NCBI GenBank assembly: GCA_016764435.1
Contig: JAESRX010000063.1
Coordinates: 32,232 to 96,231, forward strand
DNA length: 64,000 nt
Reading direction: 5' to 3'
DNA from: Flavobacteriaceae bacterium
Lineage (GTDB): Bacteria > Bacteroidota > Bacteroidia > Flavobacteriales > Flavobacteriaceae
How positions within the stretch are numbered: the first letter of the stretch is position 1; each line of letters opens with the position of its first letter. The notes under the pieces were generated by a model. That model worked only from the letters and a program-made list of their open reading frames with translations. It was not told the origin of the DNA and searched no databases. Shown one piece after another: positions 17,500 through 59,631 of the stretch. Made by a program: the position numbers and the translations under genes.

Positions 17500-17521
17500 T
17501 TATTTTAAAATAATAGTATTG

Positions 17522-18191: not shown

Positions 18192-21179
18192 ATGGAGAGA
18201 GCCAACCCCCCTGTGCTTCTTTGTGTCTGTGTCATGTTTTTTGTCACGCACATATGTTATACGCAACAATTGGCACAGCCAATATTGGGGTTTGAGTATG
18301 CGTGTGCATCACCTTCTTTTAATCAATATAATATTGAAGTTATTTCTTCTGAAGGAGGATTTGAGACTTTTAATAAGTTTGTCATTGAATTGTCAGATGC
18401 TACTGGGAACTTTGATAGCCCCGTAATTTTAAAAGAAGTTGCTTCTAAAAATTCAGTACTCAATTTTGAAACTTCATTTTCCTTTCCAACGGAAACCTAC
18501 GGTAAAGATTACCAGATACGTGTTCGGTCTACACATCCAGAAAGTATAAGCCCCGCTTCCGTGGTGTTTGCGGCCTATTATCTTTCGAATACTCCTTTGA
18601 TTTTAGAAAATTATAAAGACGTTTACCTCTGTGACAAAACGATCGTAACTCTAAGTCTAAATACCGCAGAGTTTAGTTCCTATAATTGGTATTTGAACGG
18701 TTCCTATTTGCTAACAGCAGGAGCTAGTATTGAAGTGAAAAAAGAGGGATTGTACTATGCCGAAGTTGATTTTGGTATCTGTAGCGGAGGGGCCTCCATT
18801 TCTAATTTGATAAGAGTTACGTTTATGGAACCATTGGACATCCAAATACATGGGGAAAGTACTGTCTCTATGTGTTCTGGGGATTCGTACCTATTAAAAT
18901 CTACGATTACAGATCTGTCCAATGACTATTATTGGTATAAAGACGGGGAATTGATTAAAGGAATTTCGACGAAAGCAATTACATATCTACTCATTGGAGA
19001 TCAGTTGTTTGGAGACTATACACTAGAAGTCGTGAATATGGCAGGATGTGTGTCGGTTTCTGAGCCGGTTACCGTTGTAAATGTAAATTCAACATTCACG
19101 GTAACTACCATTGGTCAGACGGAAAATATTATTGTTTTCCCTGGTGAGACAGCAACACTAGAAATAACTACGAATGCCACGTCTTACCTTGTGAAATGGT
19201 ATAAGAATAATGAATTATTAGTCGCAGCTACAAGTACTTCCCTACTTGTTTCTGAGGAAGGAATATATAAAGCTGTGGTCTCTGTTGTAGAAGGGTCCTG
19301 TGTGATAGACGTTAGTTCCGATGATTTTAAAGTGTATACTCCAAGTAATTATTTTTTAGAAATAGAAACCGAGGCGTCTTATGCCTCTTGTATCTCGGAT
19401 TCGATTAAATTACAAGTAGCCACGATACACTATGAAATTAGTACAGGGGAAAAATTGGTTCTCAATGTCGAAGATTATTCCATGTTTAATTATCAGTGGT
19501 TGTTCCAAGGAACTACTTTGTCCGGAGAAAATAACCCGAGTATGGAGGTGTTATCTTTTGAAAACAGTGGAGAGTATCAGTTAAAAATTTATGATAAAAA
19601 TGAGATATCGGGGGGGTCCAACCTTTTAAATGTGAATTTGAAATTACCAAATGTAGCCCTCTTAGGGGAAGCGTTAGTATATCTATGTTCGGATGAAGAG
19701 TACACTTTTGAAGCGAGTATTAAGAACCTTGATTATACCTATACGTGGTATAAAAATGAGTCAGAAATAAAGTCATTACCTCCTTATAGCCCTATGTATA
19801 CTGTAGATACAGATGTTTATGGTGAATATAGAGTGGAAGTGAAAAATCAAGCAGGCTGTACGAGTAGTTCAAATACTGTTGCATTATTAAATGCATTTGT
19901 TTCGTTTTATGTGACGGCTATTAATTCCAGTGCTCCGATTGTTGTGTATTCAGGAGAAACAAAAACACTTGAAATTACTACTACAGCGACCAATCCTATC
20001 ATTAGGTGGTATAAAGACGGAAATGAGATTCCTGGCGCTACGTCATTGAGTTTGGCTGTTTCTACTCCAGGTGAATATAGAGCAATGGTTACGGTTTCTG
20101 AGAGCTGTACTCAGTCTGTGTATTCAGATTATTTCAAGGTTATTATTCCTGAAAATTATAAAGTTACCCTGATTGCAGATACTAATTATGTCTCGTGTGA
20201 GTCCACTGCTGTAACCTTGAAGATAGAAGAGCTAGTGATACTACAAGAAAGTGGTATTTCAGTACTCGTAGCCATAGCGGATTATGCTAAGTTTTCCTTT
20301 TCATGGAGTTTAAATGGAACATTGATAGCCGGAGAAAATGAGCCGACTTTAGTCTTGGATTCTTGGGGAGATAACGGAAGCTATCAGTTGCGAATAATGG
20401 ATAATTCAGCGATTACAGCTTTGTCAAATGACCTTCTTATAAAAATGAAATTAGCCCCAGTAGAAATATTTTCAGAAACGCCTAGTGCTACGAAATGTGA
20501 AGAAAGTGCTATTAAATTATATACAGAAGAAAAAGAATTTTATACCTATCAATGGTATTTAAATAGCAACCCTTTGACAGGGGAAACGGCAGTTTCTATG
20601 GTTGCTATTGAGCAAGGAGACTATTACCTAAGTGTAAAACGTGATAATTGTACGATCAGTTCAAATAGTATTACTGTAAAATTTAAAGGAGCAGCTAGTA
20701 TTCATATTAGTCCTTCAGAGTCACTATTTATAAAAGGAGGAACATCAGTAGATGTTGTTGCTTCGGGTGGAGAAAGTTACCAGTGGAAAAATGAGCAAGG
20801 AGATATTCTTTCGGAAACAGCGATGTTGTCGGTGAGTGAGGAAGGAAAGTATGCGGTAGTTGCTAAAATAGGTAACTGTGAATTCACTAAAATAGTTGAG
20901 GTTTTCTTTATCACTAGTGTTTTAGTGCCAAATATAATTAGTCCTAATGGAGATGGGGTGAACGATACTTGGAATTTACCTCCTAGTTATGCCTTTAATA
21001 AATCTGTTGAAATTATCATCTATAATGCTAATGGAGCTATTGTTTATAAGACTAAAAACTATCAAAATACGTGGCCTCAAGGGACCATTAATAATGTGCC
21101 ATCATACAGCTTGTTTTATTATGTAATCAAACAAGAAGGACAGGTGTTTAAAAAAGGCACCATAACTATTATAAAATAA
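18192..21179 (+). CDS. sprC: SprC-like secreted Ig/PKD-like repeat protein with T9SS type B (gliding motility-associated) C-terminal domain, copy 1
   Basis: 995 aa; signal peptide; repeated YxWYKxGxxI...GxYxxxV Ig-like modules; C-terminal VPNIISPNGDGVNDTWNLP...VEIIIYNANGAIVYKT...FYYVIKQEGQVFKKGTITIIK. Position matches sprC of the Flavobacterium johnsoniae sprCDBF operon. Confidence 0.82.
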   Translation: MERANPPVLLCVCVMFFVTHICYTQQLAQPILGFEYACASPSFNQYNIEVISSEGGFETFNKFVIELSDATGNFDSPVILKEVASKNSVLNFETSFSFPTETYGKDYQIRVRSTHPESISPASVVFAAYYLSNTPLILENYKDVYLCDKTIVTLSLNTAEFSSYNWYLNGSYLLTAGASIEVKKEGLYYAEVDFGICSGGASISNLIRVTFMEPLDIQIHGESTVSMCSGDSYLLKSTITDLSNDYYWYKDGELIKGISTKAITYLLIGDQLFGDYTLEVVNMAGCVSVSEPVTVVNVNSTFTVTTIGQTENIIVFPGETATLEITTNATSYLVKWYKNNELLVAATSTSLLVSEEGIYKAVVSVVEGSCVIDVSSDDFKVYTPSNYFLEIETEASYASCISDSIKLQVATIHYEISTGEKLVLNVEDYSMFNYQWLFQGTTLSGENNPSMEVLSFENSGEYQLKIYDKNEISGGSNLLNVNLKLPNVALLGEALVYLCSDEEYTFEASIKNLDYTYTWYKNESEIKSLPPYSPMYTVDTDVYGEYRVEVKNQAGCTSSSNTVALLNAFVSFYVTAINSSAPIVVYSGETKTLEITTTATNPIIRWYKDGNEIPGATSLSLAVSTPGEYRAMVTVSESCTQSVYSDYFKVIIPENYKVTLIADTNYVSCESTAVTLKIEELVILQESGISVLVAIADYAKFSFSWSLNGTLIAGENEPTLVLDSWGDNGSYQLRIMDNSAITALSNDLLIKMKLAPVEIFSETPSATKCEESAIKLYTEEKEFYTYQWYLNSNPLTGETAVSMVAIEQGDYYLSVKRDNCTISSNSITVKFKGAASIHISPSESLFIKGGTSVDVVASGGESYQWKNEQGDILSETAMLSVSEEGKYAVVAKIGNCEFTKIVEVFFITSVLVPNIISPNGDGVNDTWNLPPSYAFNKSVEIIIYNANGAIVYKTKNYQNTWPQGTINNVPSYSLFYYVIKQEGQVFKKGTITIIK

Positions 21180-21187
21180 TTTTATTC

Positions 21188-23332
21188 ATGTTTAAATTGC
21201 GCTTACCAGTTCTTTTATTTTTGTTCTTTTCTAGTAACGTCATCGGACAGTCAAATGCTTATGTGGCATTAGACATAGCGACGCATAACCTTGTTAAACA
21301 CAACAGGTATTTACGCAACCCTACATTTTCAATTATTGGCGAAAAATCGTCAAGAATTAGTTTGTACAATCGTAGACAGTGGGTGGATTTTGATAATTCT
21401 CCTGCACTATATATGTTAAATTATTCAGGCTTGGTTTCTGAAAAAGTTGGCGTTGGGATTCAAATATATCAACAAAACGTTGGGGTTCTTAAAAATTTCG
21501 GAGTCATGGCCAATTATGCATATCGGCTAAAATTTAGTGAAAAAATGGCCGTGACTTTAGGGTTTAATGCCTCTTACCTTATCAGTGGGATAAATGGAGA
21601 GAAAGTATTTATAGAAAATCCGGATCCTGCGTTACAAGCCATGGACGATCATTCTCTATTCTTATTTATGCCGGGGATTAATTTTACCATAGGGAGATTT
21701 GAGCTAGGGTTGTATGCGGAAAACATTGTTGATTACAATTTTAAAACAAGTGAAACACTCACGGAATTTAAAGATAAAACCTATACAGGACATCTGATGT
21801 ATACGCACCCATTTAAAAACACTACAGGTGTTTTACAAGATATGGAGTTGCAAATTATGGCCATAAATAGAAATACCCCTTACCGAGGAAATGTACTTTC
21901 GGGAAATTTACTGTTAGACATGCCGAAACTTGGCTGGTTTCAAGGGGGGTACAACGATTTTTATGGGTATTCTGTAGGCTTAGGTGTACATGTTACAAAA
22001 AATATTTCTTTTGGATATTTAGTAGAAAGAGGAGTCAGTAAAGGTCTTAAAAATTTAGGGAGTACACATGAAATTACCATTGCTTATTCTTTTGATCCTC
22101 AGAAAAGAAAATCGCTTTCAGCGCGTAACAAGGAACTAAAAGAGAATGCCCTACTAGAAGAAGATCTTCAAAAATTAAAAAAAGACATAGACGATTTAAA
22201 AGTGAACCAAGTGGGCGCTAATATTTCGAGACTTGAAAAATTGAAAGAGTTACAATCCAAGAAAGAGAGGGAGGCTGGAGTCAATAAGAGTCAGTTGCGA
22301 ATTATAAAAGGAGAGGTAAGTCCGAATACTCATGACGCCTCTGGTGTTGCATATCAGTACTTAGGAAAAGTACCAGGTGTGGATAAAGGGTATTATGTGG
22401 TGACCAAGGTGTTCTCGGATACATTATTAGCGAAGAAAGCCGTAGAGAAACTGAATATTAAGCCCACTAAATCAGCCTATTTTTTTAATTCTAATAATGG
22501 ATATTCCTACGTATATCTGGATGTTTTTTTAAGTTGGGAAAAGGTAAAAGAAATTGTAAAATCTCGTTATGATGATAGTTATGATAACCATTTATGGATC
22601 ATGGACGTGGCTGAAGACAAGAAAAAAAGCACCGTTTTAACTCCCAAGCCTAGCGCTAAAACAGCCCCTGTTTCTAAAACTCATATTTCGACAGTAATTA
22701 AAGAAAAACAGCAAGAAGAAGCACCTTTATTAAACCCTCATAAAATTAGTAAGGCAAGGAAACCTCCAAAAAATTTACCGGTAGATATTACGGATGTTGC
22801 AAGTGGCTACTATTTGATTGCAAGTGTGTTTTCCGTGGAGACTAATGCCTCTAATTTTTTAAAGAAGTTAAAGGAAAAAGGATTGGATGCTCGGTTTTTT
22901 GTAAATCCAAAAAACAATTACCGATATGTGTATTTGAAGTATTCAAAAGAGAAAGCGGCAATGCTAAAATCGTATTATTCAAATGTAAACGATCGTTATT
23001 TCGAGGATATGTGGGTGATGCATGTTGTCTCAAAGAAAAAGAGAGTTATTGCCAATAGTAAACCTCTGGTAAAAATGAAAATTCAAGGGGTAGCTAGTGG
23101 GTATTATATCGTTGTTGGTGTTTTTTCAAAACAGCATAACGCAACTAGGTTCTTGGATAAGCTAAAGAAAAACGGCTTTGATGCGCGCTTTTTTGTAAAC
23201 CCTAAAAATAATTACCAATACATTTATATAGAACACTCCATTGATAGGGCAAGTATCGCCAAGTCATATACTTCGAATTTGAACAATACTTATTTTAAAG
23301 AAAAATGGATCTGTAGTATTGAAAATAACTAA
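21188..23332 (+). CDS. sprD: SprD-like PorP/SprF-type outer membrane barrel fused to a coiled coil and three SPOR-like repeats, copy 1
   Basis: 714 aa; PorP/SprF-like N-terminus (NLVKHNRYLRNPTFSIIGEKSSRISLYNRRQWVDFDNSPALYMLNYSG); Lys/Glu-rich heptad segment; three repeats of GYYxVxxVFSxxxxAxxFLxKLKxxGxxARFFVNPKNNYxYVYL. Confidence 0.82.
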   Translation: MFKLRLPVLLFLFFSSNVIGQSNAYVALDIATHNLVKHNRYLRNPTFSIIGEKSSRISLYNRRQWVDFDNSPALYMLNYSGLVSEKVGVGIQIYQQNVGVLKNFGVMANYAYRLKFSEKMAVTLGFNASYLISGINGEKVFIENPDPALQAMDDHSLFLFMPGINFTIGRFELGLYAENIVDYNFKTSETLTEFKDKTYTGHLMYTHPFKNTTGVLQDMELQIMAINRNTPYRGNVLSGNLLLDMPKLGWFQGGYNDFYGYSVGLGVHVTKNISFGYLVERGVSKGLKNLGSTHEITIAYSFDPQKRKSLSARNKELKENALLEEDLQKLKKDIDDLKVNQVGANISRLEKLKELQSKKEREAGVNKSQLRIIKGEVSPNTHDASGVAYQYLGKVPGVDKGYYVVTKVFSDTLLAKKAVEKLNIKPTKSAYFFNSNNGYSYVYLDVFLSWEKVKEIVKSRYDDSYDNHLWIMDVAEDKKKSTVLTPKPSAKTAPVSKTHISTVIKEKQQEEAPLLNPHKISKARKPPKNLPVDITDVASGYYLIASVFSVETNASNFLKKLKEKGLDARFFVNPKNNYRYVYLKYSKEKAAMLKSYYSNVNDRYFEDMWVMHVVSKKKRVIANSKPLVKMKIQGVASGYYIVVGVFSKQHNATRFLDKLKKNGFDARFFVNPKNNYQYIYIEHSIDRASIAKSYTSNLNNTYFKEKWICSIENN
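22372..23320 (+). repeat. Three SPOR-like repeats encoded in the sprD-like gene, copy 1
   Basis: Units starting at approximately DKGYYVVTKVFS, ASGYYLIASVFS and ASGYYIVVGVFS; units 2 and 3 share DARFFVNPKNNY exactly. Confidence 0.75.
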
Positions 23333-23371
23333 AGTCCCAGCTACTTATTAACCCTGTATTAATTGCTAATA

Positions 23372-26300
23372 ATGAAAAAGATATTAATAATATTTAAGGA
23401 TATGAAGTTTGTGAAATTGCTTGCATTTTTATGTGTTTATATTTGTTTGAACCCTATTACTTTAACCGCTCAGACGGCAGTGCCTTTTGAAATTAGGTAT
23501 AATTCTAAACTCAGAGGTGAGTTAACTTTAATTTCGAATAGTATTGTAAACAGGGACAATGGTCCTGGAGAGACATCTAATGATCCTTATAATGGTGGCA
23601 ATTCGAATGATTGGTCCAATATGAAATATATTGATGTAGACGATGATCCTACTACTTTTTCATCCAGTAAATCAAATTTAGTAATCGCTAATCAGGACTG
23701 TATAAATATAAAATATGCAGGCTTATACTGGGGCGCTATTTATCAAGATGAGGAACGAAACCCAGCGTATACAAGTGTAAAATTTAAACTTCCAGGGGTT
23801 GGGGATTATCATGATATTAATGCGGATACCATTATTTTTGATGATCAAGATACGTATTACCCAGATCCGTATGCTTGTTTTGCAGATGTGACAGCTTTAG
23901 TACAGACATTAGAATCTCCTGTTGGTGAATATACTGTGGCAAATATTTTTGCAAATCAAGGGAAATCAGGTGAAGGAAGTCCTTATGGAGGTTCTTCTGG
24001 AGGTTGGACCTTGGTAATCGTTTACGAAGACCCAATGCTTAGTAATAAAAATGTGACAATTTTTGATGGCTTCTCGGGTGTAGAAAAAGGAGTTGCAGCA
24101 AGTGTTTCTGTTTCTGGATTTACAACCATTCCTAAAGGTCCTGTAAATGCGCGTATTGGAGTTTCTTGTTTAGAGGGGGAAATTCAGTTAAAAGGAGATA
24201 AATACGAGATAAGTACGGGGGCTAATTACCCGAATTTTACAGCATTGTCTGATGCTGAAAATCCTTCAGATAACTTTTTTAATAGTTCCATTACTATTGA
24301 TGGATCTCATTACTTAGATAGAGTTCCTAATAGTATTAATAATTTAGGTTGGGATACAGACCTGTTTCAGGTTTTTAATCCTTCAAATTTAGTCATAGGA
24401 AATCAAGAAACATCCGCCACGTTACGCCTCGAAACGGTTCAAGATAGGTATTATGTGTTCTATACTTCATTTTCAGTGGAAATAATAGAGCCACAAATAA
24501 CGGTATTGAAGACCGTTGATGATGGGACTAATGATTTGGAAGGGTCTGATGTTGTCTTAGGACAGCGTCTTTGGTATCAGTTGAGATTTCAGAATACAGG
24601 AAATGATGATGCCATCAATATGACCATGGTAGATACTCTTCCTATTAATGTTGACCTCGATGAATCGTCCATGGTATTGCCTCCTGGTGTAACTTATACA
24701 TACATACAACCCACAGGATTGAGTGGAGGTATCTTAACATTTACAATCCCTAATGAGATTGTAACTAAAGGCGCTACGTATTATGACATTCGCTTTAAAG
24801 TCGCTATTTCTGATGAATGTAATGACTTACGGGATGCTTGTGAAAATAGAATAGAAAATATTTCCTATTCTTATTATACCGGAAAGGATAGTGGAACAGA
24901 GATAAGTGATGATCCTAGTTTTTACGGATTGGATGCTTGTAATTTTGGAATTACAGGATCTACTAATTTTTTAGTAGATGTGAACGCATGTACTTTTGAT
25001 AGAAATGAAGTGATGTGTGGTTCGTCCCTTGATTTAACAGCAGGTAGTGATTTTATTGCCTATGTTTGGAAGGATGCTTCAGGGAATATAATAGGAGATA
25101 CTCAAACGATAACGGTTACAAATATAGGTGTATATACAGTTGATAAAACAGCAGCTGCACCTTGTGTAAATGCAAAAGAAACGATTACAGTAGTCCCTTT
25201 TGGAGAACAGACAAATCCATTGATTAGCCCAGATGGTAGTGGAGGTTATTTGTATGTAGATGAGGTTCTTGTTTGTCCAAATGACGGACGTAAATTATCG
25301 GAAATATACTTATGTGGGACAGATGATTCTCGGGATATTGTCACCAATATTGCGGGAGCAGAAGCGATTAAATGGCAGAAATTATCGGAAGAACAAGAAG
25401 GGAATGCCTATCCAAACTGTCCTAATACCGAAGGAAGTAGTGTGTGGACTACCGTAGATTCAACCAATAATTTTAAGGTGGTAGCCGCGGGAGAATATCG
25501 ATTGGAACTTGTTTTTCCTGGGGGTTGTTTTGTTCGGTATTATTTTAATGTATTTAAATCTACCGTAGAACCTGCTATTTCTAAAAAGAATATCAATTGT
25601 GGAAAAGAGGGGTTTATCGCTATTTATAATATCGATACTTCTTTGTATGAATTCAGTGTTGTTTTAGAAGGGCAACCTGCAGGAAATTTTACGAGTCAAC
25701 ACACATATCCTATTAATGTAGCAGGTGATTATACCGTGTATTTTCGTCAAATAGGAGTGAGTTTATCCGCGTGTGTTCCTAAAATTGAAAGCATTCATAT
25801 TTCTGAAAAAACGATACATACCACCATCACAGCATCTCCTATTTTATGCGAGACGGGTAAAGGGGCTATTCGTGTTCAAGTAAATGATGTTCCTGGAGAT
25901 TACCTGATGGAATTACAAACCATGGCTGGAGAAGTTATAGGGAATTATGGACCAAGTCCTCTAAATGATAATTTGTTCGATAATTTGGATGCAGGATTCT
26001 ACCAAGTGATTGTTACAACTCCGGAGTGTTCTGATCGTATTGAAAATATTGAAATAAAACCACCAGTTCCATTAGAATTTACAGCGGCACTGGCTCAGAG
26101 TATTACGTGTATCGATGGAATTATTAAAGTGAATTCTTCGGGAGGTCTAGTACCTCATTACTATGCCATTCATAGTTATATCTTAGAAGGAACAGCTACA
26201 TGGACCGTAATTTCTTCGTCAGAATATAAGTATCAAACAAACCAACTGTTTGATATTAGTAACCCTGGGGTTTATAGGTTTATTATGGTTGATAGTAATT

Positions 26301-29300
26301 TGTGTACAGCCATTTCTAATGAGGTTGAAATCAAGATAGAACCAAAAATATCTTATGATCTGGAGATAACAGATGTAGTTTGTTTTGGGGATGATACAGG
26401 ACTTGTTACGATAAGTCCCACAGGAAATCTAAACGGAAATGAATTGACCTTCGCACTGGATGATGGTATTGTAGGAAATGGAGTTTTTGATGCCATTCTT
26501 TCCGATGGAAGTTATGACGATGCTTCTTTTACTTCTATAATGTCTTTTATTGGCTTGCCTACAGGAAACTATACCTTGATCATGAGGGTTTCAAAAGGAA
26601 CGTCTACGTGTGATTTTCCTGAAGTATTTACTATTGGAGCACCTTCAGCAGGGATTACAGGAAAGTTACATATAGTTCAAGAATATACGTGTAAAAAATT
26701 AGGTGAAATAGCCGTGGCTATTACGGGAGATACGGCTATTTCTGGAGGGACACCTCCTTATGTGTATGCTATTGATGGCGTGAGTTTTACAAGCGATAAT
26801 ACGTTTTCAGACTTAACTAATGGAACGTATGTGGTCACTGTAAAGGACAGTGAGAACTGTGTTTTTCTGACCAATTCAATCATATTAGAGGCACTAAATC
26901 CTCCTACAGACTTAAATTTTGAAACAACCGCAATTAAGTGTCCTTCTTTAGAAACGGAGATTACAGTATCGGTAATTAATGGAAATCCACCATTTGAGTA
27001 CGAAATTATTTCGCCTTCAAGTGCTGTAATTCATAATGGAAATAATAAGGTGTTTACAGGGATATTAGAAGGCACTTATACGATAAGGGTAACGGATGCC
27101 AAAGGATGTGAATATGAAAAAGATAAGACTATAAATGCAATCAGTCAAATAGCCATAAAAGGAAATGTTACTGCTTCCGTTCAATGTAAAGGATCTACGT
27201 CTGGAGCAGCAGAATTTACCGTTTCTGGCTATAAAAAAACCTACAGTTATCGTGTTAATGGCGGAGCTGTGACTAGTGACCAAAGTACTGCAACTATAAA
27301 CTTATCAAATCTACTAGCAGGGAATTATGAAGTAACTGTTATTGATGAAGATACAGCGTGTACAGACACGTATACGGTCACGGTAGATGAACCCGAATTT
27401 CCTCTTATCTTAGAGTTATTACCTACACTTATTACGTGTAATAGTAATGCAACTATTAAGGCTTTTGTAACTGGTGGCTGGGGAGCATTTAACTATAAAT
27501 TGCAGACACAAGCAGGTGTTGTACATACAGATTATAGTAGTGATTCTTTATTTCTAAATGTATTAGAGGGCGAGTATACGGTACTGGTTAGAGACGCGAA
27601 TGGATGTGTTGTTTCTAAAGATATAAGTATAAAAGCAGCCATAAGTCCTACGGTGAGTATTGTTTCGAATACCGGATGTTATACCGCTATGGGAACCATT
27701 GTAATCACTGCTTCAGGTACAGGCGTGGCTCCATTAAAATATGCTATTGATGGAGGGAGTTACCAGAGTTCTGCGACCTTTTCAGGGATTACTCCTGGAG
27801 AGCATCAAGTATCGATCATAGATGGAGATGGATGTAAAGCCGTTTCTAATTTACTTAATTTTTCTCCAGAACTTATTATGAGTGTACAGTATTTACCTAT
27901 TATATCTTGTGAAAACACGACAGAAGTAGCTATTACCGCGAATGGTGGAAATGGAGTTTATACGTATGCAATAGTAGCATCGGGTATTTTGCCCTCGGAA
28001 ACAGATTACGGAATAGCATCTTCGATTACTGTTACAGGAATAGGGAGCTACGATGTCTATGTTAAAGACGGTAAACAATGTAGTGTTATGACTACAATTA
28101 ATGTCACTAAAAAGGATGAATTAGAAATTTCATACACGGCTACAGCTGTTTTTTGTAACGGTGATTTTGTAAAAATCACAGCGATAGGAATAGGAGGAGA
28201 AGCTCCTTATTTTTATCAATTAGAAAATGTTTCAGGAACTATTTTTAATAGCTTTCAGACACAAACAGTATTTAATACTGTTGTTGCAGGAAATTACCTT
28301 CTTAGAATAAAGGACGCTAATAATTGTGAAGAAACAGTCCCTGTCGTAATTTCAGAGCCTGAATATTTGGTGGCCTCTGCAGGTGTTTCGGAATTAGTTT
28401 CGTGTAATAAAGACCTCTATGCAGCAGTACATATTACAAATCCTCAAGGAGGAACCCCTTTTTCATTACCAGATTTATACCGTTATAGTTTTGACGGAGG
28501 GATTAGTTATACGATCTCAAACACTCAAAATTTGCCTTCAGGGACACATACTGTTTATATAAAAGATGCAAATGGCTGTGTTTTTCCGATGGAAGTTATT
28601 GTCGCAGCTAAAATAGCGGGACCTAGTTATCTTACTGCATTGACGTATAATTGTGTTGGAGAAGGGATTTTTGAAATTTTACCAGAAGATGTTATTCCAC
28701 TTTTTAGCTATACATATACCCTAGATGGAGGCGCTGAGTTTCTTCCAAATACAGGGATAGGACATGTGTTTTCTAACGTAAGCGTTGGGGATCATACGGT
28801 GACTATGAATTTTACGCCACTGGCTACACCTACGAAAAATGTAGTATTGAATGAAGATTTTGGTGCAGGAGAAAATACATCTCTTAGTAATGTAAGCCCT
28901 GTTTATTGTTATGAGCCTCAGGACGGAACAGGTGCTTGTTATTTTGGCCCTTCCATTAATGAGGGTGAATATTGTGTAACAAAAGAAGTGACTTCTCCAT
29001 CGTTGTCATGGCGTAGTCCAAATGATATTTCAGGAATGGCCAATGGTCGATTTTTAGTGGTTAATGTAGTTGGAGATGCTGGAGATAATGGTGTTATCTA
29101 TCAGAAATCAGTTTCAGGTATTCATCCGAATAAAGATATTACCATTTCTTTAGCGGTGTATAATCTTTTAAAAATGGGAGCTGTAGGAACGGATCCTTCT
29201 ATTACCATACAGCTGACTGATAGTAGCGGGACAGTATTACTTGATGCTGCAGGGGATCCTGTAGCGTTTAATGTAGGAGAGGTTCCTAAGAATAATCATG

Positions 29301-37588: not shown

Positions 37589-37606
37589 TAGTAAATAGAA
37601 AATTTT

Positions 37607-39258: not shown

Positions 39259-39266
39259 TATATTTG
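39259..39266 (+). promoter_or_regulatory. Putative -7 element (TATATTTG) of sprCDBF-like cassette 2
   Basis: TAnnTTTG match embedded in TTTAACTTATATTTGTA, close to TTTAACTTATGTTTGTA upstream of cassette 1. Confidence 0.5.
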
Positions 39267-42320: not shown

Positions 42321-42326
42321 TATCTT

Positions 42327-44414: not shown

Positions 44415-44445
44415 GTATTGACTATTAACCTGACCCCTAATAATT

Positions 44446-50400: not shown

Positions 50401-53400
50401 TGGCACGAGTTTAAAATAACGTTAAATCCGGGAGCAAATACAAATTTAAGTATTGTAATTCGAACAAATTCAGCCGTAATTATGGGGAACGATATCGCTA
50501 TAGATGATATCTTTGCTTTCCAAGAACCGGAACAATGTCCAAGTACTACAGCAATGACTTTTACTGTAGAAGCAGGGAAGGAATTTAAAGTGATGACAAC
50601 GACAGTTACAGATGTTACTTGTAACGGAGGGAGTGACGGAAGCATAAGTGTTCAAGTCAGTAATTTTGATCCAGTTTTAGGGTATCAATTCAGTACAGAT
50701 GGTGGTACCACTTGGAGTGCTTCTCAGTTAGCTAATATAATCACTGTAAACGGACTCAATGCAGGATCACATGCTATAGAAATCGCCTATATTACAGATG
50801 GTTTAGGGACAAGAGATTGTGCGAAAACGCTTACTGAAATTATTGGAGAACCGACAGCTGTACTTGCAAGTGCAAGTATTATAGAAAAATTGACATGTAC
50901 GAATGCAGGAGCTACTATTACGGCAAGTGCTATAGGTGGAGGAGGTTCTTATGAATATCAATTAGAAGATACGGCAGGGCTTCCTATCGTAGCCTTTAAA
51001 ACGTCTCCTGTTTTTGAAAATCTAATGGCAGGATCTTATATCATTAGAGTAAGAGATGTATTCGGATGTGAAGATGTTATAGATGTACAAATTGATATTG
51101 AATTACCTACACCTATTTTATATACAACTACTCAAACCAATTGTTATACAGGATATGGGAATGGAAGTATCACGGTGAATGTTACCGCAGGAAATGGAAA
51201 TTATCAGTTTGGTATAAATGGGAGTGCTTTTCAAACACCAAGCCCAGCTACTGGAACTAGTTATACTTTTTTAAACTTAATTTCAGGGAATTACACCATT
51301 GCAATACGTGATCAATTTGATTGTTCCGTTACTTCGGTAGTAACGATAGATTCTCAATTAATAGGAGCCGCTATATTAGTAAATGATATTGATTGTAATG
51401 TACCTACCAATGGTGAAATTTTAATAAATGCCAATGGTGGAGCTGGAGGAAACACTTATGAATGGTCTAATGATGGTGGAGGAATTTGGAATGCGAGTAA
51501 TTTTGTAGGAAATTTGTTTACCATTGGAATAGCGGGGGATTATATTTTTAAAATAACCGATGCTTCTGCTTGTTTTGTAATCACCAATCCGATTACCTTA
51601 ACTCCTGCGATCAATCCTGATTTTACACTCCTTGCAACGGATATCAAATGTAACGGAGACCTCAGTGGAGTGATTGATATTACGATTGATGTAACTAAAG
51701 GCTTAGCTCCATACACTACAAATATAATTAATACAACAAGTGCTACGGGCTATGGAACACAAACAACAGGATTGCCAGCTGGTGATTATGAGGTTACTAT
51801 AACCGATGCCAAAGGCTGTTCAACTACAAATTTAGTTTCCATTATAGAACCCACAGCAATCAACGGGAATATCTCTAAAATTGATATTTCTTGTGCGAAT
51901 CCATTCGATGTAAAGGGAGTCATATCTGTTGATGCCGGTGGAACTGGAACCGGTCCTTATACTTACCAAGTGTATAACAATGATTACTCTTTTAACCAAA
52001 CAATAGATACTGCCGTACTAGGGCTTACTAATTATACCTTTACAAGTTTAGATTTTGGGCAGTATAAAGTGGTGATTATTGATGCAAATGGTTGTGAAAG
52101 TATTTCAGACATAACCATTGGTACATCTCCAGATATTTTAGTGACTATTGTAGGAGTAGCTACCTGTACTACGGGTAGTATTACTGTACAAGCAAATACA
52201 ACCAGTGGCTCCTTGAGTACAGGGCCTTATTATTTTGCTATTTATCCTATTGCAACTCCTGCTCCGCTTGGTTTCGGTTGGTTTCCTGGAGTAGCGGGAG
52301 TTCTGGCTAGTGGGGCCGCTACAGAAGAATACACTTTTAACGGATTAACACCAGGAGTTACCTATACATTTGTAGTGTATGACGATAGTACAAAATGCAC
52401 CTATATTCAAGAAGCAGATAAATTAATAAACCCTATTTCCACATTAAAATCAACGATTGATACAATAACAGATATTACATGTACTGGGGCTTCAGACGGT
52501 AGGGTAGATTTTACCATTTTTAATTATGAAGCAACAGCTACTCAAGTAGATTATCAAGTATTTCAAACCATTACTATCAATCCAATTTTGGGACAATCAG
52601 GTTCTTTTATTGGACTGACAGGAATACCTGCATCTGATACTTTAACGGGATTTGCTCCAGGTGAATATTTTATTCAATATACAGAAGTCGATGGAGGGAA
52701 CCCAGGCTGTATTACGACATCTGAACCGTTTTTAATCCAACAATCACCTACATTATTAGAAATTACGGCAAGTCTTACTAAAAATGAAAACTGTAACGAA
52801 TTAGGAATAATCACTGCATTAGCGCAATACGGAACGGCTCCTTACGATTATCAAATACAAGCAGCTACGGATGCTGATCCAACCATAGGAACATGGCTTG
52901 GAGGAAACGCTACTGGTATTTTTAATGTGGTTGCGGGTGACTATAAAGTGTTCGTAAAAGATGCCTTAAATTGTATTCAGGGAATTCCTATACTGTTAAC
53001 TGTTCCATTAGATCCATCTCCAGCGATTACGGCGACAGCAGATTATACGGCCTGTCCAGGAGAAGGAAATTTCAGTGTAAATATTACTCTTGATACGGCG
53101 GGGGTTCCTCCGTATAGTATTCAGATTAATGGAGGTGCGAGTCAGGTGATTACGGATCCATTTGATACCTTAACTCCAATCGTAATAACAGGACTTAATT
53201 CCGGCGTAAATACATTTCAAATTACAGATAGTAATGGTTGTAGTGAAGCTGCGGCAGACGTAATAACTATTGTAGCGCCACTTGAGTTTAATGCGAGCAT
53301 CACTAAATTATTAGATTGTTCTGTAGCTCCAAATGCGACCATAACACTTCGGGATGTTATAGGTTCGGGTAATTATACATATCAAATTGATAATTTAGAT

Positions 53401-56400
53401 ACCGCTACTAATTATGTGCTTGCAGGTACAGTACTTCCAGCCCTTCCATTTGATTGGAACGGGGCAGATGTTAGTGGAGAATATGAAATTATAATCACAG
53501 ATACGGCTACTAATTGTACTGCTGTAAAATCAGTATTTATTGTAGCAGATTTAAACCCAATACTACTAACCGTACCTACCACGGTAGATGCCTTGTGTAG
53601 TGGAAGTAATGATGGAAGCATCCGTATTACTGCTCAAGACAATGGTATTGGTCCATTTACATTTTCTATTACAGCACCTTTGCCAATAGTAGCTACTTCA
53701 AACAACGGATTCACCGCTACTTTTGAAAATTTACCAGGCAGCGTTTTAGGTACTAATTATACCATTACTATTACGGGGGCAAATGGATGTACAACGGATC
53801 AAATAGTGACTATTTTTGAACCTACTCCTGTGAGTATTGACCTTCTAACGACCACGCCTTTTGGCTGTACTATTGGGAATACGCCAAATGTTGCAAGTAT
53901 TACTGTGACTACGGTAAGTGGAGGGAATGGTTCTTATACTCGTTATGAATTTGTGAATTCTGATGGGATTACTGTCCAAGATGGTACAAATAATACATTG
54001 AATATTGCATACGATACAGGAACAGCTATTTATAGTGTCGCTATGGGCGCCACTACGCCAGGACTGTTTACTGTAAATGTTTATGATAGTAACGGATGTT
54101 TGGCTACAGATACAGAGACAATTCTTCTTTTTGATGAAATTAGCAATGCAAATATTACTGTTTTAGAAGCTATTTCTTGTGTGAATCTAGGGGAAGATAT
54201 TCAAATAGATGTTATTTCAACGGCAGGAGATCCTACACAGTTTGAGTTTTCTGATGATAATGGAATAACTTGGCAACTCTCCAATGTATTTAATGATCTA
54301 GCCGTAGGAACGCATAATTTTACAATCAGACATTTGATAACAGGATGTACCTATCCTCTAAGTTATACCGTAAACGAACCAAATACATTTACTCCAAAAG
54401 TGACCATTGTGAACCAAGTAATTTGTAAAGGTTCCACTAGCGGTACAGTTACTTTTGAATTGGAAGACACTACCTACCCAGGAGGATTTGATTGGGAGAT
54501 TTTTGACACCAAAGGAACCTTAGCAAACGATGCCGATGATACTTCTGTAGCTACAGGGAATATAGGAACTAATGGTCCAACGCTACCAGTGAACATTGGA
54601 GCCGGATCTTATTATGTAGTCATTACTCAAAATAATATCCCTACATGTAATAACCGTGTGTATTTTACCATTACAGAACCCATTATTGGATTGTCTGGGA
54701 CTTACACAAGTACTAATATTACTTGTATTGGGAATGATGGAACGCTTGTAATTACTCCAACTGGTGGTTGGGCTAACTATGAATATTATGTAGGTGTCGG
54801 CGCCCCAGGAATAGGCAGCTGGACTGTGTCGGATTCGTTTAATGGATTGGCAGTGGCTACTTATCAAGTATGGATTAAAGACATGTCGGGTTGTGAAATT
54901 CAATTGCCTGATGCCATTTTTACGGACCCAGTCCCAATTACTGGAACCTTGCAAATAAACAATGCAAATTGTACTGGGAATAATGGAGAAATAGAAGTAG
55001 TACTTGTAACAGGTGGACAAGGAACTAATTATCAATATCAATTAATTTTAAATGGAATTCCTATTGGAATTCCACAGTCTAGTCCTGTATTTACAGGATT
55101 GGGAGCAGGGAATTATGAGGTGGAAATTTCGGACCAATGGTCTTGTGTTTCGGTCATCCCAGCAGGAATATCTATCCTCTTTGAAACGTTACAACCAAGT
55201 GTTTCTATTGTAAAAGAAATAGACTGTACTGCAATTCCAGGAGGAGAAATTACTACGAGTGTTACCGGAGGGTCTGGGAATTACACGTATACGATAACCC
55301 AACCAGACGCCACGGTTATTCCAAGCGTTACTGGGATATTTGTAGGGTTAACGCAGGTAGGAGTGTATACGATTACTATTACAGATATTACGACAAATTG
55401 TACGGCTATGATTACGGAAACGTTAGTAGCACCTTCTAATGTATTCATAGATTCTTTAAATTTCACCGATGCTATATGTACTGGTGATGCGAACGGAACC
55501 ATCACCGTAAATTTAGCAGCAACGATTCCAGGAATTAATGACGAGCCACCTTATACCTATCAAATTACAGCACCTATTTTAGGAATAGCGCAAAGTAGTA
55601 ATGTATTTACTGGATTGGTAGCGGGCACGTATACAGTTCTTGTAACTTCTGTAAAAGGATGTACTGATACAAAAGACATAACGATTGGAGAACCCGTAGC
55701 GCTTTCTGTAGTTGCAATAACGGATACTTTTGTTTGTACTCCTACCAATATAACAGGCGTTGTCACCATTATAGCAAATGCTTCAGATGGTACACCAGGA
55801 TATTTATTTAGTATAGACGGCCTTAATTATACAGCCTCTACTACTTTTGAGATTGTTGATACAGGAGTGATTCAAAACATCACCCTATGGGTTAAAGATG
55901 CCAACGGCTGTACGGCAACAGCTACTGTTGCGATCAATCCATTACCTACAGTTACCGCCATTGCAGTGACTCAAAATACGGCCATTTCTTGTGTGAACCC
56001 TGAAAATGTAACCGTTACCGTTACAGGTGGCTCGGGAGATTTCACCTATGAATTGCTACCAATTGGAACAAATTCACAAAGTATTATTAGTCAGTCTGCA
56101 ACATTTGATTTGCCGTCAGTAGGGAGTTATACTTTTAAAGTAATTGATAATAGCACAGGATGTTTTGTGATGAGTATCCCTTATATCGTAGCTCCGTTTG
56201 ATACTATTGCAGTCACGGCTTTGTCGAGTACTCCTATCCAGTGTTTTGGAGATACTAATGGAAGTATCACTTTTGAAGTTCTAAATTATGGAGGTAATTA
56301 TACATGGGATGTTCTGGACGAATGGGGCCTAAGTATTGCCAATAATACAGGAAATGGAACTTTGAATCCTGTTGTGATTCCGAATGTTCCAGGAGGTAAT

Positions 56401-58680
56401 TACACCGTATATATAGTTGCTACGGATCCGGCTTTTTGTGATGCAACCAGTAATGTAATCACGATAGCATCACCGAGTACAGCTTTAACGGTGAACTTAA
56501 GTGTGAGCCATAAGGAGACATGTGATCCAGGTGATGATGGTGAAATTATTGCTTTGGGAGCTTTTGGATGGGGTTCTTATGAATACCAACTCTCACAAGG
56601 AGCAGTTATTTTACAAGCGTTTTCAAATGCAAATGTTTTTAAAGATTTAGATGCCGGAATGTATACCGTTACCGTAAAAGATGCGGCAGGTTGTGAATAT
56701 CCAGAGACTATTCAAATTATTGCACCGAATCCAATGACGGCAACGGCAACACCTAATACCTTAAGTTGTTTTGGTGATTTGGATGGTGAAATAACGGTTT
56801 TTGCCAATGGAGGACAAGGAATTGGAACATATTTATATAGTTTAATAAATGCAGTAGGGAATGCATCAGCGCTTCAAACCTCACCTGTATTTAATAACCT
56901 TGCAGCAGGGACTTATACCGTACTAGTTACAGATAATTTAAATTGTGAAGTGACTACTTTACCAGTTACTATCGTTGTTCCAGACCAGGTGATCGCAGCA
57001 GCGCGTCTGACCAATGTGCTGAGTTGTACTATGGATGCTATTATAGAAATTACCGCTTCAGGTGGAGATGGAGGTCCTTATACATATAGTGTAGACGGAG
57101 TCATTTTTAATGGAGTAAATACATTTAATTTAAACCCTGCAATCATTACTACCTATCAGTTCTTTGTCAGAGATGCTAGTGGATGTACGTCTGCTGTTTC
57201 CAATGGAATTACGGTGAGACCAGTACAGCCTTTAACAATAACGATTGATGGAATTAATGCCAATATCAGTTGTTTTGGTGGTAATAATGCCGTAATAGCA
57301 GCTGTTACTTCTGGAGGTATGGGGAATTATAAGTACGAGTTATTGGATGGCAATGATGTCCTGCTCGATGGCCCTCAAAATTCAAGTATTTTTACAGATT
57401 TAGCTTCCGGAATTTATAAAGTGAGAGTCTCTAGTTTGGACTGTTCAGAAATATCTACTCCTTTTGCAATAACGGACCCTAAACAACTCCAGTTAATTGC
57501 TCCTGCGAGTGTTATAAACATAAGTTGTTTTGGAGAAGAGGACGGAAAGATTACGGTGAATGCTGTTGGAGGAACAGGAAATCTTATTTATAGTATAGAT
57601 CAAAATAAATATGTGACGAATAACGTATTTGAAAACCTTGGTCCTGGAACATATACGGTGACGGTACAAGATCAAAATGGTTGTTATATCAATGAAAGAG
57701 TTACCATTCAGGAGCCTGCATTGTTAGTGATGACCTTTGGACTTATCAATCAAGAAAAATGTATAGATGATAAAGACGCAAGTATAGAAATAGTGATTAC
57801 AGGTGGAACGGCTCCTTATTTCACCAAATTAAATATAGACGGAGTTTTTGTACAAGGAAAATTAATATACGATAACTTATTAGGAGGTTCTACCTATGCT
57901 ATTTATATAGAAGATAGTGCTGGATGTACTCAAAATTTAGTGATTAAATTAGATCCTCCAGTGGATTTGAATTTTGGGACTACCATTGATTATGCCTGTG
58001 ATGGAAATATAAAAATTATTGCCTCCGTAGACGATGAATTTGAAAACGATGTTACCTATACCTTAGTGAGTGCTACCCAATCCTTTTCAAATACTACCGG
58101 TGTTTTTGAGAATTTAACGCCTGATACTTATTTGGCAGAAGCAGAACATACGAATGGGTGTATTCCTTCTCAATCTTTTGTAGAAGTTGTAGAAATGATT
58201 CCTGCAGAAGTAACTTTAGAAGAAACATTTGTAAATACAATTACGGCACATGTAACGTTCGGATTGCCTCCATTTCAATATAGAATAGATGGCGGTGAGT
58301 ATAGAAGTTCTAATGAATTTATTGTCAAGAAAACAGGAACCTATACCGTAGAAGTTAGAGATGCCAGAGGATGTATTTCTACAGCGGATATTTATATAGA
58401 GTTTATTACAGTATTTATTCCAAACTTCTTTACACCAGACGGAGATGGAACAAATGATTATTGGTATCCTCGTAAATTAATGGCATATCCTAATATTCAT
58501 GTCTCTGTATTCGATCGTTATTCTAGATTGATTATTGAATTTAGAGGGCCCCAAGTAGGATGGGATGGTAAATTAAATGGAACTGCACTTCCTTCAGGGG
58601 ATTACTGGTATGTAATAGACTTGGATGGATTGCAAGGTGATAAACGGAAGATGATGGGTAATTTTACACTGTATCGTTAA
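44446..58680 (+). CDS. sprB: Giant SprB-like gliding/surface adhesin with T9SS type B sorting domain, copy 2
   Basis: 4744 aa; collinear with copy 1 from N-terminus to CTD (C-terminal IPNFFTPDGDGTNDYWYPRKLMAYPNIHVSVFDRYSRLIIEF...GDYWYVIDLDGLQGDKRKMMGNFTLYR). Confidence 0.9.
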   Translation: MKNIVSSPNYVHYSKIVFFLTFILCIKYSGMLAQTSVPFTIRYSEKLRGDLTLISNNILNRNEGAGRSSNDPYNGYRTNDVFNMGYIDVDTDASTFSSSKATLDIANSTCLNVKFAGLYWGAIYKEAIREKDYNQVKFKLPGAANYIDIIADDVIFDTQGTFHPDPYACFADVTGYVQSLGSPVGEYTVANVRASLGWSEMYFGGTAPLGGASAGWTLVIVYEDPLISNKNVTIFDGFSGINKDIVNPVDIYVSGFTVIPTGPVKARIGVSCLEGDRGLGGDSYSISSDGNNPVFRVLSDAVNIETNFFNSSISIDGTHVVNKVPNSINNLGWDTDLFEVNNPANSVIGNDETAATLRLQTNKDSYFVFQTSFAIEIIEPKITVIKTVDDGASSLAGANVTLGDSMWYQLRFQNTGNDSATNTTIKDLLPINVDLDESSIILPWGVNYTYIAPTATSGGIIMFTIDDSIVTKGATFYDIRFKVTVTDQCNDLRDACENRIENVAFAYYTGLDSGTQISDDPSFYGLDNCDFGLSGATNFLVDVAGCTFERTEVICGDSLDITAGNGFVAYEWKNAAGIVVGNSKTLTVTNQGVYTVYKTANAPCVDATETVIVVPFGIQKNPLISQDGGGDYKYVDAVKICPNDGRELSEIYLCGTDDYRVIVTNIASANQILWEKLDPLEEGTSDVNCPNTTITSKWTTIDTTNNFTADTAGEYRLRIVYPGGCFSNYYFNVFKSTVQPIIVNKNINCGNDGMITINNIDASLYEFSVVLDGQPAGFFSSVNSYPISVPGNYTVYFRTIGALPTACVPKIEGIVIATKTISTIISVNHILCPTDTGGIRVQVNNVPGDYQIELHTMAGALIGTYGPDPLNDYLFDNLAGGYYRVRVTTPECTEVITDIQVKAELPLQLTAVVSQNITCKEGNIQMSSSGGQTPHNYAIHSYKLKDDAFWTIINPVDYAYQSSQIFDIPTVNGAGEYRYVVVDRNLCTAVSNIVKITLELDVDYTIDTTDIACFGDSTGVISFVLNDKSKNLSYALDDGIPGNGFLDAIIAGSDPTDYDLTAFNTSGVFTNLPAGTYTLIIKRGNNSKACFYPKTVVLTEPIDPLTGTLAASQPLTCNQLGEVTVDAIGGTPPYQYAIDGINFVNTNVFTGLFSGSNTVTIIDANGCITTTNAVVFDVLNKPTDLSITTTQITCPSLSSDLTVASVIGGTLPFVYEIIAPAGAVVNNGNDPVFTNLSVGTYRIKVTDALGCSYEEDYTIIPVSEIAIVGIVDTEVICKGTATGNATFTVSGFTTSYSYSLNGNPEIIGKNSTSIVLPNLFTGNYTIVITDETTLCTDTATVTITEPVLALTMSLTASPITCNTNAAITVTANGGWGALEYQLEDAAGVVLTAYGTTKLFTNVLAGDYSVFVRDANGCVLQENITIDAVVVPTISIVASTECFTSTGNISITATGTGTAPLQYALNGGNYQNGNVFSNILPGNHSITVKDMYGCEATSNVITVFNELTLSTQFSSINGCMNTTDVTITAYGGDGVYTYTILPTGVLPTPGDYVATAIITLNAPGDYVVYVKDGKGCETFETITVLKDPPLTITASSTPILCNGDLSVITVIAGGGQAPYEYQLEDVLGAVITNYQASPVFNNLPVKDYVVRVKDARDCEVFVTVIISEPDYLLASAGVTELVSCNNDMDAEVRITNAQGGTPFPIPNLYRYSFDGGLTYTTSNISNLPSGTHTVYVQDANGCTFSMEVIVAAKITAPDYMPSLTYDCDGNGIYTVTAVDPIPLYSYTFNIDGGAAVPADITVPTYGGPTGISFPNIPVGTHTVTMNFTPLATPTKSVLLEESFGIGANTSISNIDPVYCYEPQDGTGGCFFGPAINDGEYSVTQKVAFPFGSWRNPNDHSGMVNGRFLAINVGGAAGTTGIIYEKEVKDIIPNRDITISLYAFNLLRQGSGGGDPSINVQLVDSFGTVLATSPVSPVIPKNTNADDWHEFKITLNPGANTNLSIVIRTNSAVIMGNDIAIDDIFAFQEPEQCPSTTAMTFTVEAGKEFKVMTTTVTDVTCNGGSDGSISVQVSNFDPVLGYQFSTDGGTTWSASQLANIITVNGLNAGSHAIEIAYITDGLGTRDCAKTLTEIIGEPTAVLASASIIEKLTCTNAGATITASAIGGGGSYEYQLEDTAGLPIVAFKTSPVFENLMAGSYIIRVRDVFGCEDVIDVQIDIELPTPILYTTTQTNCYTGYGNGSITVNVTAGNGNYQFGINGSAFQTPSPATGTSYTFLNLISGNYTIAIRDQFDCSVTSVVTIDSQLIGAAILVNDIDCNVPTNGEILINANGGAGGNTYEWSNDGGGIWNASNFVGNLFTIGIAGDYIFKITDASACFVITNPITLTPAINPDFTLLATDIKCNGDLSGVIDITIDVTKGLAPYTTNIINTTSATGYGTQTTGLPAGDYEVTITDAKGCSTTNLVSIIEPTAINGNISKIDISCANPFDVKGVISVDAGGTGTGPYTYQVYNNDYSFNQTIDTAVLGLTNYTFTSLDFGQYKVVIIDANGCESISDITIGTSPDILVTIVGVATCTTGSITVQANTTSGSLSTGPYYFAIYPIATPAPLGFGWFPGVAGVLASGAATEEYTFNGLTPGVTYTFVVYDDSTKCTYIQEADKLINPISTLKSTIDTITDITCTGASDGRVDFTIFNYEATATQVDYQVFQTITINPILGQSGSFIGLTGIPASDTLTGFAPGEYFIQYTEVDGGNPGCITTSEPFLIQQSPTLLEITASLTKNENCNELGIITALAQYGTAPYDYQIQAATDADPTIGTWLGGNATGIFNVVAGDYKVFVKDALNCIQGIPILLTVPLDPSPAITATADYTACPGEGNFSVNITLDTAGVPPYSIQINGGASQVITDPFDTLTPIVITGLNSGVNTFQITDSNGCSEAAADVITIVAPLEFNASITKLLDCSVAPNATITLRDVIGSGNYTYQIDNLDTATNYVLAGTVLPALPFDWNGADVSGEYEIIITDTATNCTAVKSVFIVADLNPILLTVPTTVDALCSGSNDGSIRITAQDNGIGPFTFSITAPLPIVATSNNGFTATFENLPGSVLGTNYTITITGANGCTTDQIVTIFEPTPVSIDLLTTTPFGCTIGNTPNVASITVTTVSGGNGSYTRYEFVNSDGITVQDGTNNTLNIAYDTGTAIYSVAMGATTPGLFTVNVYDSNGCLATDTETILLFDEISNANITVLEAISCVNLGEDIQIDVISTAGDPTQFEFSDDNGITWQLSNVFNDLAVGTHNFTIRHLITGCTYPLSYTVNEPNTFTPKVTIVNQVICKGSTSGTVTFELEDTTYPGGFDWEIFDTKGTLANDADDTSVATGNIGTNGPTLPVNIGAGSYYVVITQNNIPTCNNRVYFTITEPIIGLSGTYTSTNITCIGNDGTLVITPTGGWANYEYYVGVGAPGIGSWTVSDSFNGLAVATYQVWIKDMSGCEIQLPDAIFTDPVPITGTLQINNANCTGNNGEIEVVLVTGGQGTNYQYQLILNGIPIGIPQSSPVFTGLGAGNYEVEISDQWSCVSVIPAGISILFETLQPSVSIVKEIDCTAIPGGEITTSVTGGSGNYTYTITQPDATVIPSVTGIFVGLTQVGVYTITITDITTNCTAMITETLVAPSNVFIDSLNFTDAICTGDANGTITVNLAATIPGINDEPPYTYQITAPILGIAQSSNVFTGLVAGTYTVLVTSVKGCTDTKDITIGEPVALSVVAITDTFVCTPTNITGVVTIIANASDGTPGYLFSIDGLNYTASTTFEIVDTGVIQNITLWVKDANGCTATATVAINPLPTVTAIAVTQNTAISCVNPENVTVTVTGGSGDFTYELLPIGTNSQSIISQSATFDLPSVGSYTFKVIDNSTGCFVMSIPYIVAPFDTIAVTALSSTPIQCFGDTNGSITFEVLNYGGNYTWDVLDEWGLSIANNTGNGTLNPVVIPNVPGGNYTVYIVATDPAFCDATSNVITIASPSTALTVNLSVSHKETCDPGDDGEIIALGAFGWGSYEYQLSQGAVILQAFSNANVFKDLDAGMYTVTVKDAAGCEYPETIQIIAPNPMTATATPNTLSCFGDLDGEITVFANGGQGIGTYLYSLINAVGNASALQTSPVFNNLAAGTYTVLVTDNLNCEVTTLPVTIVVPDQVIAAARLTNVLSCTMDAIIEITASGGDGGPYTYSVDGVIFNGVNTFNLNPAIITTYQFFVRDASGCTSAVSNGITVRPVQPLTITIDGINANISCFGGNNAVIAAVTSGGMGNYKYELLDGNDVLLDGPQNSSIFTDLASGIYKVRVSSLDCSEISTPFAITDPKQLQLIAPASVINISCFGEEDGKITVNAVGGTGNLIYSIDQNKYVTNNVFENLGPGTYTVTVQDQNGCYINERVTIQEPALLVMTFGLINQEKCIDDKDASIEIVITGGTAPYFTKLNIDGVFVQGKLIYDNLLGGSTYAIYIEDSAGCTQNLVIKLDPPVDLNFGTTIDYACDGNIKIIASVDDEFENDVTYTLVSATQSFSNTTGVFENLTPDTYLAEAEHTNGCIPSQSFVEVVEMIPAEVTLEETFVNTITAHVTFGLPPFQYRIDGGEYRSSNEFIVKKTGTYTVEVRDARGCISTADIYIEFITVFIPNFFTPDGDGTNDYWYPRKLMAYPNIHVSVFDRYSRLIIEFRGPQVGWDGKLNGTALPSGDYWYVIDLDGLQGDKRKMMGNFTLYR
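46675..58400 (+). repeat. Array of about 43 divergent SprB-type modules (copy 2)
   Basis: Same module pattern and order as copy 1; count by eye. Confidence 0.85.
49946..50538 (+). other. Non-SprB insertion domain inside SprB-like copy 2
   Basis: SVLLEESFGIGANTSISNIDPVYCYEPQDGTGGCFFGPAINDGEYSV...NGRFLAINVGGAAG...LSIVIRTNSAVIMGNDIAIDDIFAFQEPEQC; same position as in copy 1. Confidence 0.6.
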
Positions 58681-58698
58681 TTTTAAGAAGAAGTTATT

Positions 58699-59631
58699 AT
58701 GAAAAAAATAGTACTCTTGGCATGTGTATTTAGTGTCCTTCTATGTAGAGGGCAGGAATTTAATATGCCATTATTAAGCCAGTATATGGCAGAAAACCCC
58801 TATGTAATATCTCCCACCTTTGCGGGGATAGGTCCTTATTTTCAGTTGCGAGTAAGTGGACTGGAACAATGGGTAGGAGTGAGTAATGCACCAGGGACGC
58901 AATCCGTATCTTTGGATGGACGTTTTGGAGATGTAGATGGCGTAGGAATACTCCTATTTAATGATGAAAATGGAAATACAAGACAGTATGGAGGGCTTTT
59001 AAGTTACGCCCATCATTTAACATTAAACGATTATAGAAATCAGTTTTTGTCCTTTGGAATTTCATATCGTTTTACACAGTTTAAAATAGATGTTTCTAAA
59101 TTTAACGGGGATGATCCTTCTGTATATGGAGATAAATCTACGTTTAATTCAAATTTTGATGTGGGTGTTTTATACCGTTTCGAATCCTTTTATTTTAGTT
59201 TGAATGCCTCGAATATATTAGATAAAAGTGCCAGAGCATTTGCGGACAGCGAGCCTGTAAAACTTAGAAATTATTCTATTTATACGGGATTCAAGTTTTT
59301 AGAGAATCCATACCATCAGTTAGAAGTTTCCTTATTTGGACGCTATTTTGAAAGTGATGGACGTTCGAGTACCGATGTCAATGTAAAATACAGAAAAATA
59401 AAAGGAGATGACTATGTTTGGGCTGGAGCCAGTGTTAGATTGCTCAACGATTTAGGGTTTAAACCTGCGAGTTTTACGCCGATGATAGGTTTTAAGCGTG
59501 ATAACTTTTATGTTTCTTATGGATTTGAAATTACCTTAGGAGATATCATCCAATACAACGTAGGGACTCATTTAATCACCTTAGGAGTTGATTTCTTATA
59601 CAATCCTAGTAGTAGGAAATGTACGCAGTAG
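58699..59631 (+). CDS. sprF: PorP/SprF-family T9SS outer membrane protein, copy 2
   Basis: 310 aa, same length as copy 1 and closely similar throughout; 18 bp downstream of the sprB-like gene. Confidence 0.93.
   Translation: MKKIVLLACVFSVLLCRGQEFNMPLLSQYMAENPYVISPTFAGIGPYFQLRVSGLEQWVGVSNAPGTQSVSLDGRFGDVDGVGILLFNDENGNTRQYGGLLSYAHHLTLNDYRNQFLSFGISYRFTQFKIDVSKFNGDDPSVYGDKSTFNSNFDVGVLYRFESFYFSLNASNILDKSARAFADSEPVKLRNYSIYTGFKFLENPYHQLEVSLFGRYFESDGRSSTDVNVKYRKIKGDDYVWAGASVRLLNDLGFKPASFTPMIGFKRDNFYVSYGFEITLGDIIQYNVGTHLITLGVDFLYNPSSRKCTQ

Follow-up and report, generated by a model that had tools for sequence, protein, structure and literature searches.

The window, a stretch of 64,000 nucleotides from a 110 kb contig, belongs to a marine Flavobacteriaceae genome that is a fragmented MAG (97 contigs, 81% complete). 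Eight plus strand open reading frames in the window form two collinear four-gene operons, sprC-sprD-sprB-sprF, at 18192-38539 (copy 1, cassette 1) and 39342-59631 (copy 2, cassette 2). Domains were assigned with Pfam and NCBIfam family models. The genes, their flanks and the shorter features are as follows.

15658..17500, + strand: atpD-atpC on the left side, shared by the three relatives
18112..18119, + strand: promoter-like TATGTTTG of cassette 1, Bacteroidota TAnnTTTG type, 80 nt before sprC1
18192..21179, + strand: C1, sprC-like, 995 aa, Ig-like domains with a T9SS sorting domain of type B (CHU_C)
21188..23332, + strand: D1, sprD-like, 714 aa, PorP/SprF outer-membrane barrel, then three SPOR-like repeats
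23363..37588, + strand: B1, sprB-like giant adhesin, 4741 aa with 103 Cys, SprB repeats and a type B sorting domain
37607..38539, + strand: F1, sprF-like PorP/SprF carrier, 310 aa
38510..38536, + strand: F1 C-terminal tail NPSGRKCTY, with Arg306 in place of the first C-X-C cysteine; Cys308 is retained
39259..39266, + strand: promoter-like site TATATTTG, cassette 2, located 83 nt ahead of sprC2
39342..42320, + strand: C2, sprC-like, 992 aa, CHU_C match over the cut-off
42327..44414, + strand: D2, sprD-like, 695 aa, PorP/SprF barrel and SPOR-like repeats
44446..58680, + strand: B2, sprB-like giant adhesin, 4744 aa, 101 Cys, type B sorting domain
58699..59631, + strand: F2, sprF-like carrier, 310 aa
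59602..59628, + strand: F2 C-terminal tail NPSSRKCTQ, Arg306, single Cys308
59737..60972, - strand: right flank, hflX, GTP-bdg_N/GTP-bdg_M/MMR_HSR1

Both copies have C, D, B and F in this order, closely spaced and all on the same strand. The family models placed a type B sorting domain in C, a PorP-like barrel in D, SprB repeats (PF13573) in B1 and B2, which also have a strong type B sorting domain, and a PorP/SprF shuttle directly 3' (F1 and F2). Both C1 and C2 passed the CHU_C cut-off, while their TIGR04131 scores, 33.9 and 25.4 bits, fell under the curated cut-off of 35. An earlier reading of the sequence alone had proposed two complete sprCDBF-like operons in tandem and an HMM search as a check; the gene order, collinearity and expected domains, among them PorP/SprF domains in D and F and SprB repeats in B, bear the proposal out. 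The 39 bp gap that it gave before B1 was reproduced with an ATG at 23372, three codons past the listed TTG (23363) and probably the real start. The operons are nevertheless a variant rather than plain members of the sprCDBF type, since the C-X-C motif is missing from their SprF tails. No tandem repeats were found within either cassette. Elsewhere in the window, at 6520-10323, there is a reprolysin-like metalloprotease with a P-domain and a type A sorting domain. Two other PorP/SprF-type carriers of the same genome (L012 and L017, contigs C26 and C50) have a single cysteine near the C-terminus, and L017 adjoins another SprB-repeat protein.

A protein comparison of the two cassettes, also proposed by the sequence-only reading, gave collinear BLASTP matches from end to end for all four pairs. 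The pairwise amino acid identity was 48% over 995 positions for C, 47% over 717 for D, 56% over 4770 for B and 76% over 309 for F. Self-comparison of the DNA yielded mainly blocks of 70-81% identity, with a few shorter ones higher. Fragmentation of the MAG could raise the suspicion that the two operons are an artefact of assembly or binning, but this can practically be dismissed, since copies that differ by 24-53% in protein are not an assembly duplicate, and DNA blocks of 70-81% indicate that the assembly neither collapsed nor copied the region. Moreover, there is no N within the window, a single contig spans the locus and the flanks are conserved on both sides, with atpD/atpC preceding the operons and hflX following them. 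The cysteines of the adhesin are far better conserved than the protein as a whole, 101 of the 103 in B1 being matched in B2 as against 56% overall identity. A cysteine-rich SprB was considered as a speciality of the genus and dropped, the density being 21-23 per 1000 in all SprB examined.

The genus set consisted of the genome of the window together with NORP129 (G003), NORP150 (G300) and NORP167 (G240), all incomplete MAGs (62-82%), the NORP numbers designating MAGs of North Pond crustal fluids (PMC8819061). In NORP150 one operon of the copy-2 type fills the whole interval between atpC and hflX. The NORP129 operon follows atpC, and the contig that holds it stops 14 nt into the 3' end of hflX. 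Because this contig end crosses a dispersed minisatellite, and hflX on another contig has a different neighbour, the link to hflX, and with it a single operon between atpC and hflX in NORP129, is probable rather than certain. The minisatellite, (AGTGAGT)n with a common flank, occurs in NORP129 both after sprF and after hflX (L069, first 204 nt; L292, about 2708-2860). In NORP167 two sprB fragments overlap at 79%, but sprB also repeats internally and the arrangement fits either one or two operons. The internal direct repeats of the NORP167 sprB (L070, 1-9600) are about 2.3 kb long at 83%.

In the synteny survey that had been suggested for related genomes, a second C-D pair directly after sprF was found in none of 77 named loci outside the genus, some of which stop at contig ends. 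The four-gene doubling was seen only in the genome of the window; what is added in the Aquimarina loci and in G050, G209 and G248 is one more B or B-F unit. Seven Maribacter loci (L125, L126, L157, L163, L168, L188 and L190) have a further SprD-like gene (811-982 aa) several genes past sprF, encoded on the other strand.

The history of the two copies was followed in joined trees. In the C+D tree, copy 1 and NORP129 formed a clade (100/99.7); placing NORP129 with copy 2 was rejected (p-AU 0.013), as was placing it outside both (p-AU 0.002). In the tree of the B C-terminus and F, NORP129 grouped with copy 2, NORP150 and NORP167 (99/97), and the grouping of copy 1 with NORP129 was rejected (p-AU 0.009). 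These p values are somewhat generous because the groups tested were picked after the single-gene trees had been viewed. Judged by the trees, the NORP129 operon is a hybrid, with C+D of the copy-1 group and the B C-terminus and F of the copy-2 group. The hybrid points to a divergence of the copies that predates the split of the genus, and to C-D and B-F, rather than the four genes as a whole, as the units that travel together. The pair would have been born by duplication before the genus diversified, and one copy would later have disappeared from other members, through a deletion or through recombination within sprB. NORP129 would have lost the middle in the latter way, and NORP150 would have retained copy 2 only. 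The large difference between the copies (24-53%) and the orthology of the NORP150 and NORP167 operons to copy 2, not to copy 1, might instead suggest that copy 1 came from another genus member or from a sister lineage and inserted next to the operon already there, with no tandem duplication here. We regard such a transfer as unlikely, because the F protein of copy 1 has the RKC tail found only in the genus and falls within the genus in all trees, and because C-D of the copy-1 type lies at the same locus in NORP129.

Each operon would make two type B substrate-shuttle pairs, SprC-SprD and SprB-SprF. The substrate would exit via the T9SS, and its own PorP/SprF-type barrel would take the C-terminal domain and keep it anchored. 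Pickup and anchoring by the barrel are established for SprB-SprF of Flavobacterium johnsoniae, in which export and anchoring of SprB require SprF and the sorting domain sets the destination of the protein (PMC12618676). We infer that D1 and D2 carry C1 and C2; by analogy with F. johnsoniae, F1 and F2 would carry B1 and B2. Among solved structures, the C-terminal domain of B1 matched the C-terminus of GhpA (PDB 9flp) with E 2.1e-10, whole-length B1 matched nothing at 1e-5, and F1 gave only weak, unrelated-looking matches.

The sequence-only reading had gone further and taken the four proteins of each operon to work as a matched set. Duplication of the entire operon, with order and spacing retained, and the usual specificity of type B CTD-shuttle pairs (PMC12618676) speak for such exclusive sets. 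The idea is nonetheless improbable, since the NORP129 operon, which joins the C+D half of copy 1 to the B C-terminus and F half of copy 2, indicates that the halves are separable. In addition, the sorting domains are 73% identical between B1 and B2 and 67% between C1 and C2, level with the 68% sorting-domain identity at which shuttle crosstalk has been shown in F. johnsoniae (PMC12618676). Mixing between carriers is expected at such identities, and crosstalk between the copies is likely by this analogy.

The TAnnTTTG motif is a promoter element in Bacteroidota. The core TTTAACTTATRTTTGTA, with small variants, lies upstream of every sprC of the genus, that is, of both copies and of those in the three related MAGs, and the element is located 71-84 nt before the sprC start codons. 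This suggests that each copy has its own promoter. Scans for terminators and sigma-70 sites between the cassettes gave no more matches than in shuffles. The alternation of two filaments, which had been suggested earlier, found no backing here, as the same kind of promoter-like site precedes both copies and the window showed no gene for an invertase. A weak 18 nt inverted repeat (16 of 18 matched; 38822-38839 and 39345-39362), with its right arm in codons 2-7 of sprC2, does flank the promoter region of cassette 2 and could be read as a sign of promoter inversion. However, 3 of 60 shuffles reach the same level, no recombinase gene was seen in the window and both promoter-like sites point toward their genes, so that alternate expression of the operons is very improbable.

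In F. johnsoniae, Cys326 of SprF forms a disulfide, described in 2025, with Cys343 of GldK; Cys324 makes the bonding efficient, both cysteines are required for gliding, and the C-X-C of the SprF tail was reported to be invariant in close homologs (PMC12635249). Aligned to C-X-C, Arg306 of F1 and F2 occupies the first cysteine position and Cys308 the second, equivalent to Cys326. All five SprF tails of the genus have a single cysteine, RKC in F1, F2, NORP129 and NORP150 and RRC in NORP167. Outside the genus, the C-X-C tail is present in 74 of 77 named loci of the family and in 38 of 40 further loci, two sets that overlap in species so that the counts are not additive. On this alignment, one of the two cysteines that fasten the carrier is missing throughout the genus, and the bonding one is kept. 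The one-cysteine SprF tails had gone without mention in the earlier reading. Five SprF-like carriers have no tail cysteine at all (L124, L127, L172, L232 and L248), and the first three of these follow B-type proteins about 1063-1084 residues long.

The other partners of the track were compared likewise. PorG was found in two of the four genus genomes, and a DNA pattern search for PorG gave chance matches only. In both genomes its tail reads FGRPPCYAPR (PCYA), while most family members have PCYC or CxxC, and the cysteine that is kept corresponds to Cys225 of F. johnsoniae PorG, the one preferred for GldK (PMC12635249). Single-cysteine PorG tails also occur in G007, G002 and G016 (L213, L216 and L218), genomes with no SprF match at 1e-60. 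The partner cysteine of GldK is kept in all 24 genomes examined, including the four of the genus; a change around this cysteine was considered and dropped, none having been found in the 24. GldJ is intact in NORP129 and NORP150, two of the four genus MAGs, and was not found in the 81% complete assembly of the window. It is suggestive that the tails of both SprF and PorG have lost the exchange cysteine but retain the one that bonds, as two changes in the same direction rather than as statistics.

By homology to the Cys326-Cys343 bond, F1 and F2 would couple to the moving GldJKN track through a disulfide between Cys308 and the conserved GldK cysteine. The second tail cysteine serves efficient and perhaps also reversible bond formation in F. 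johnsoniae, and it is absent here in SprF and PorG. With the exchange cysteine gone, formation of the bond would depend on an external oxidant and its reversal should be difficult, as has been discussed for the single-cysteine PorG of Porphyromonas gingivalis (PMC12635249). Both fibres would ride the same track and would probably be partly interchangeable between F1 and F2. Taken together, two old paralogous sprCDBF operons, duplicated before the genus diversified and coupled to the track by a single cysteine, are a fairly probable account of the locus.

Whether the lineage glides is a separate matter. A gliding lineage with rebuilt coupling, in which SprF and PorG, and with them the adhesins and the secretion driver, are fixed to the track by poorly reversible disulfides made by a separate oxidant and two types of SprB fibre share one track, is a real possibility, though somewhat less likely than not. 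The strongest rival to the account of the locus given above is loss of gliding: both operons would display giant static adhesins, and loss of the second cysteine would reflect decayed track coupling. A single-cysteine SprF may indeed mean no gliding, because F. johnsoniae with the C324A substitution continues to export SprB but no longer spreads (PMC12635249). Static adhesins are known among those of type B (PMC12618676), and other single-cysteine PorG were seen only in the family genomes that lack an SprF match. Yet some adhesins of the C324A mutant still ran helically in a sustained manner (PMC12635249), the bonding cysteine is kept in five of five SprF and both PorG, as is that of GldK, and GldJ is intact in two relatives. 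A non-gliding lineage is accordingly possible but somewhat doubtful.

With giant SprB adhesins but only the bonding cysteine in both SprF and PorG, the genus is a natural counterpart of the F. johnsoniae mutant that stops gliding, and it provides a test by nature of the role of the second cysteine, which could be to make the bond or to undo it, or which could be dispensable. The tandem and hybrid operons reveal which parts co-evolve, C with D and the B sorting domain with F, and are material for tests of shuttle specificity.

The locus resembles sprCDBF of F. johnsoniae in gene order, in domains, in a giant SprB with a type B sorting domain and in the SprF-type carrier directly downstream; it differs in its two tandem copies and in an SprF tail with the equivalent of Cys326 only, not Cys324-X-Cys326. 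It shares tandem expansion at the sprB-sprF end with the C-D-B-F-B'-F' loci (G050, G209, G248 and Aquimarina), but those repeat B-F only and keep CXC tails, whereas here C and D are repeated also. Like PorG of P. gingivalis, whose single tail cysteine is required for T9SS function and was proposed to bond to PorK (PMC12635249), the SprF and PorG of the genus are track partners with one tail cysteine and hence no internal donor disulfide. P. gingivalis, in contrast, is non-gliding and has no gliding adhesin; its PorG cysteine aligns with the second position, while the cysteine retained by the genus is the first one in PorG but the second one in SprF. Finally, the grappling hook protein GhpA of Aureispira is, like B1, a giant surface protein, and its C-terminus is matched by B1, although the B1 match is confined to the sorting domain.
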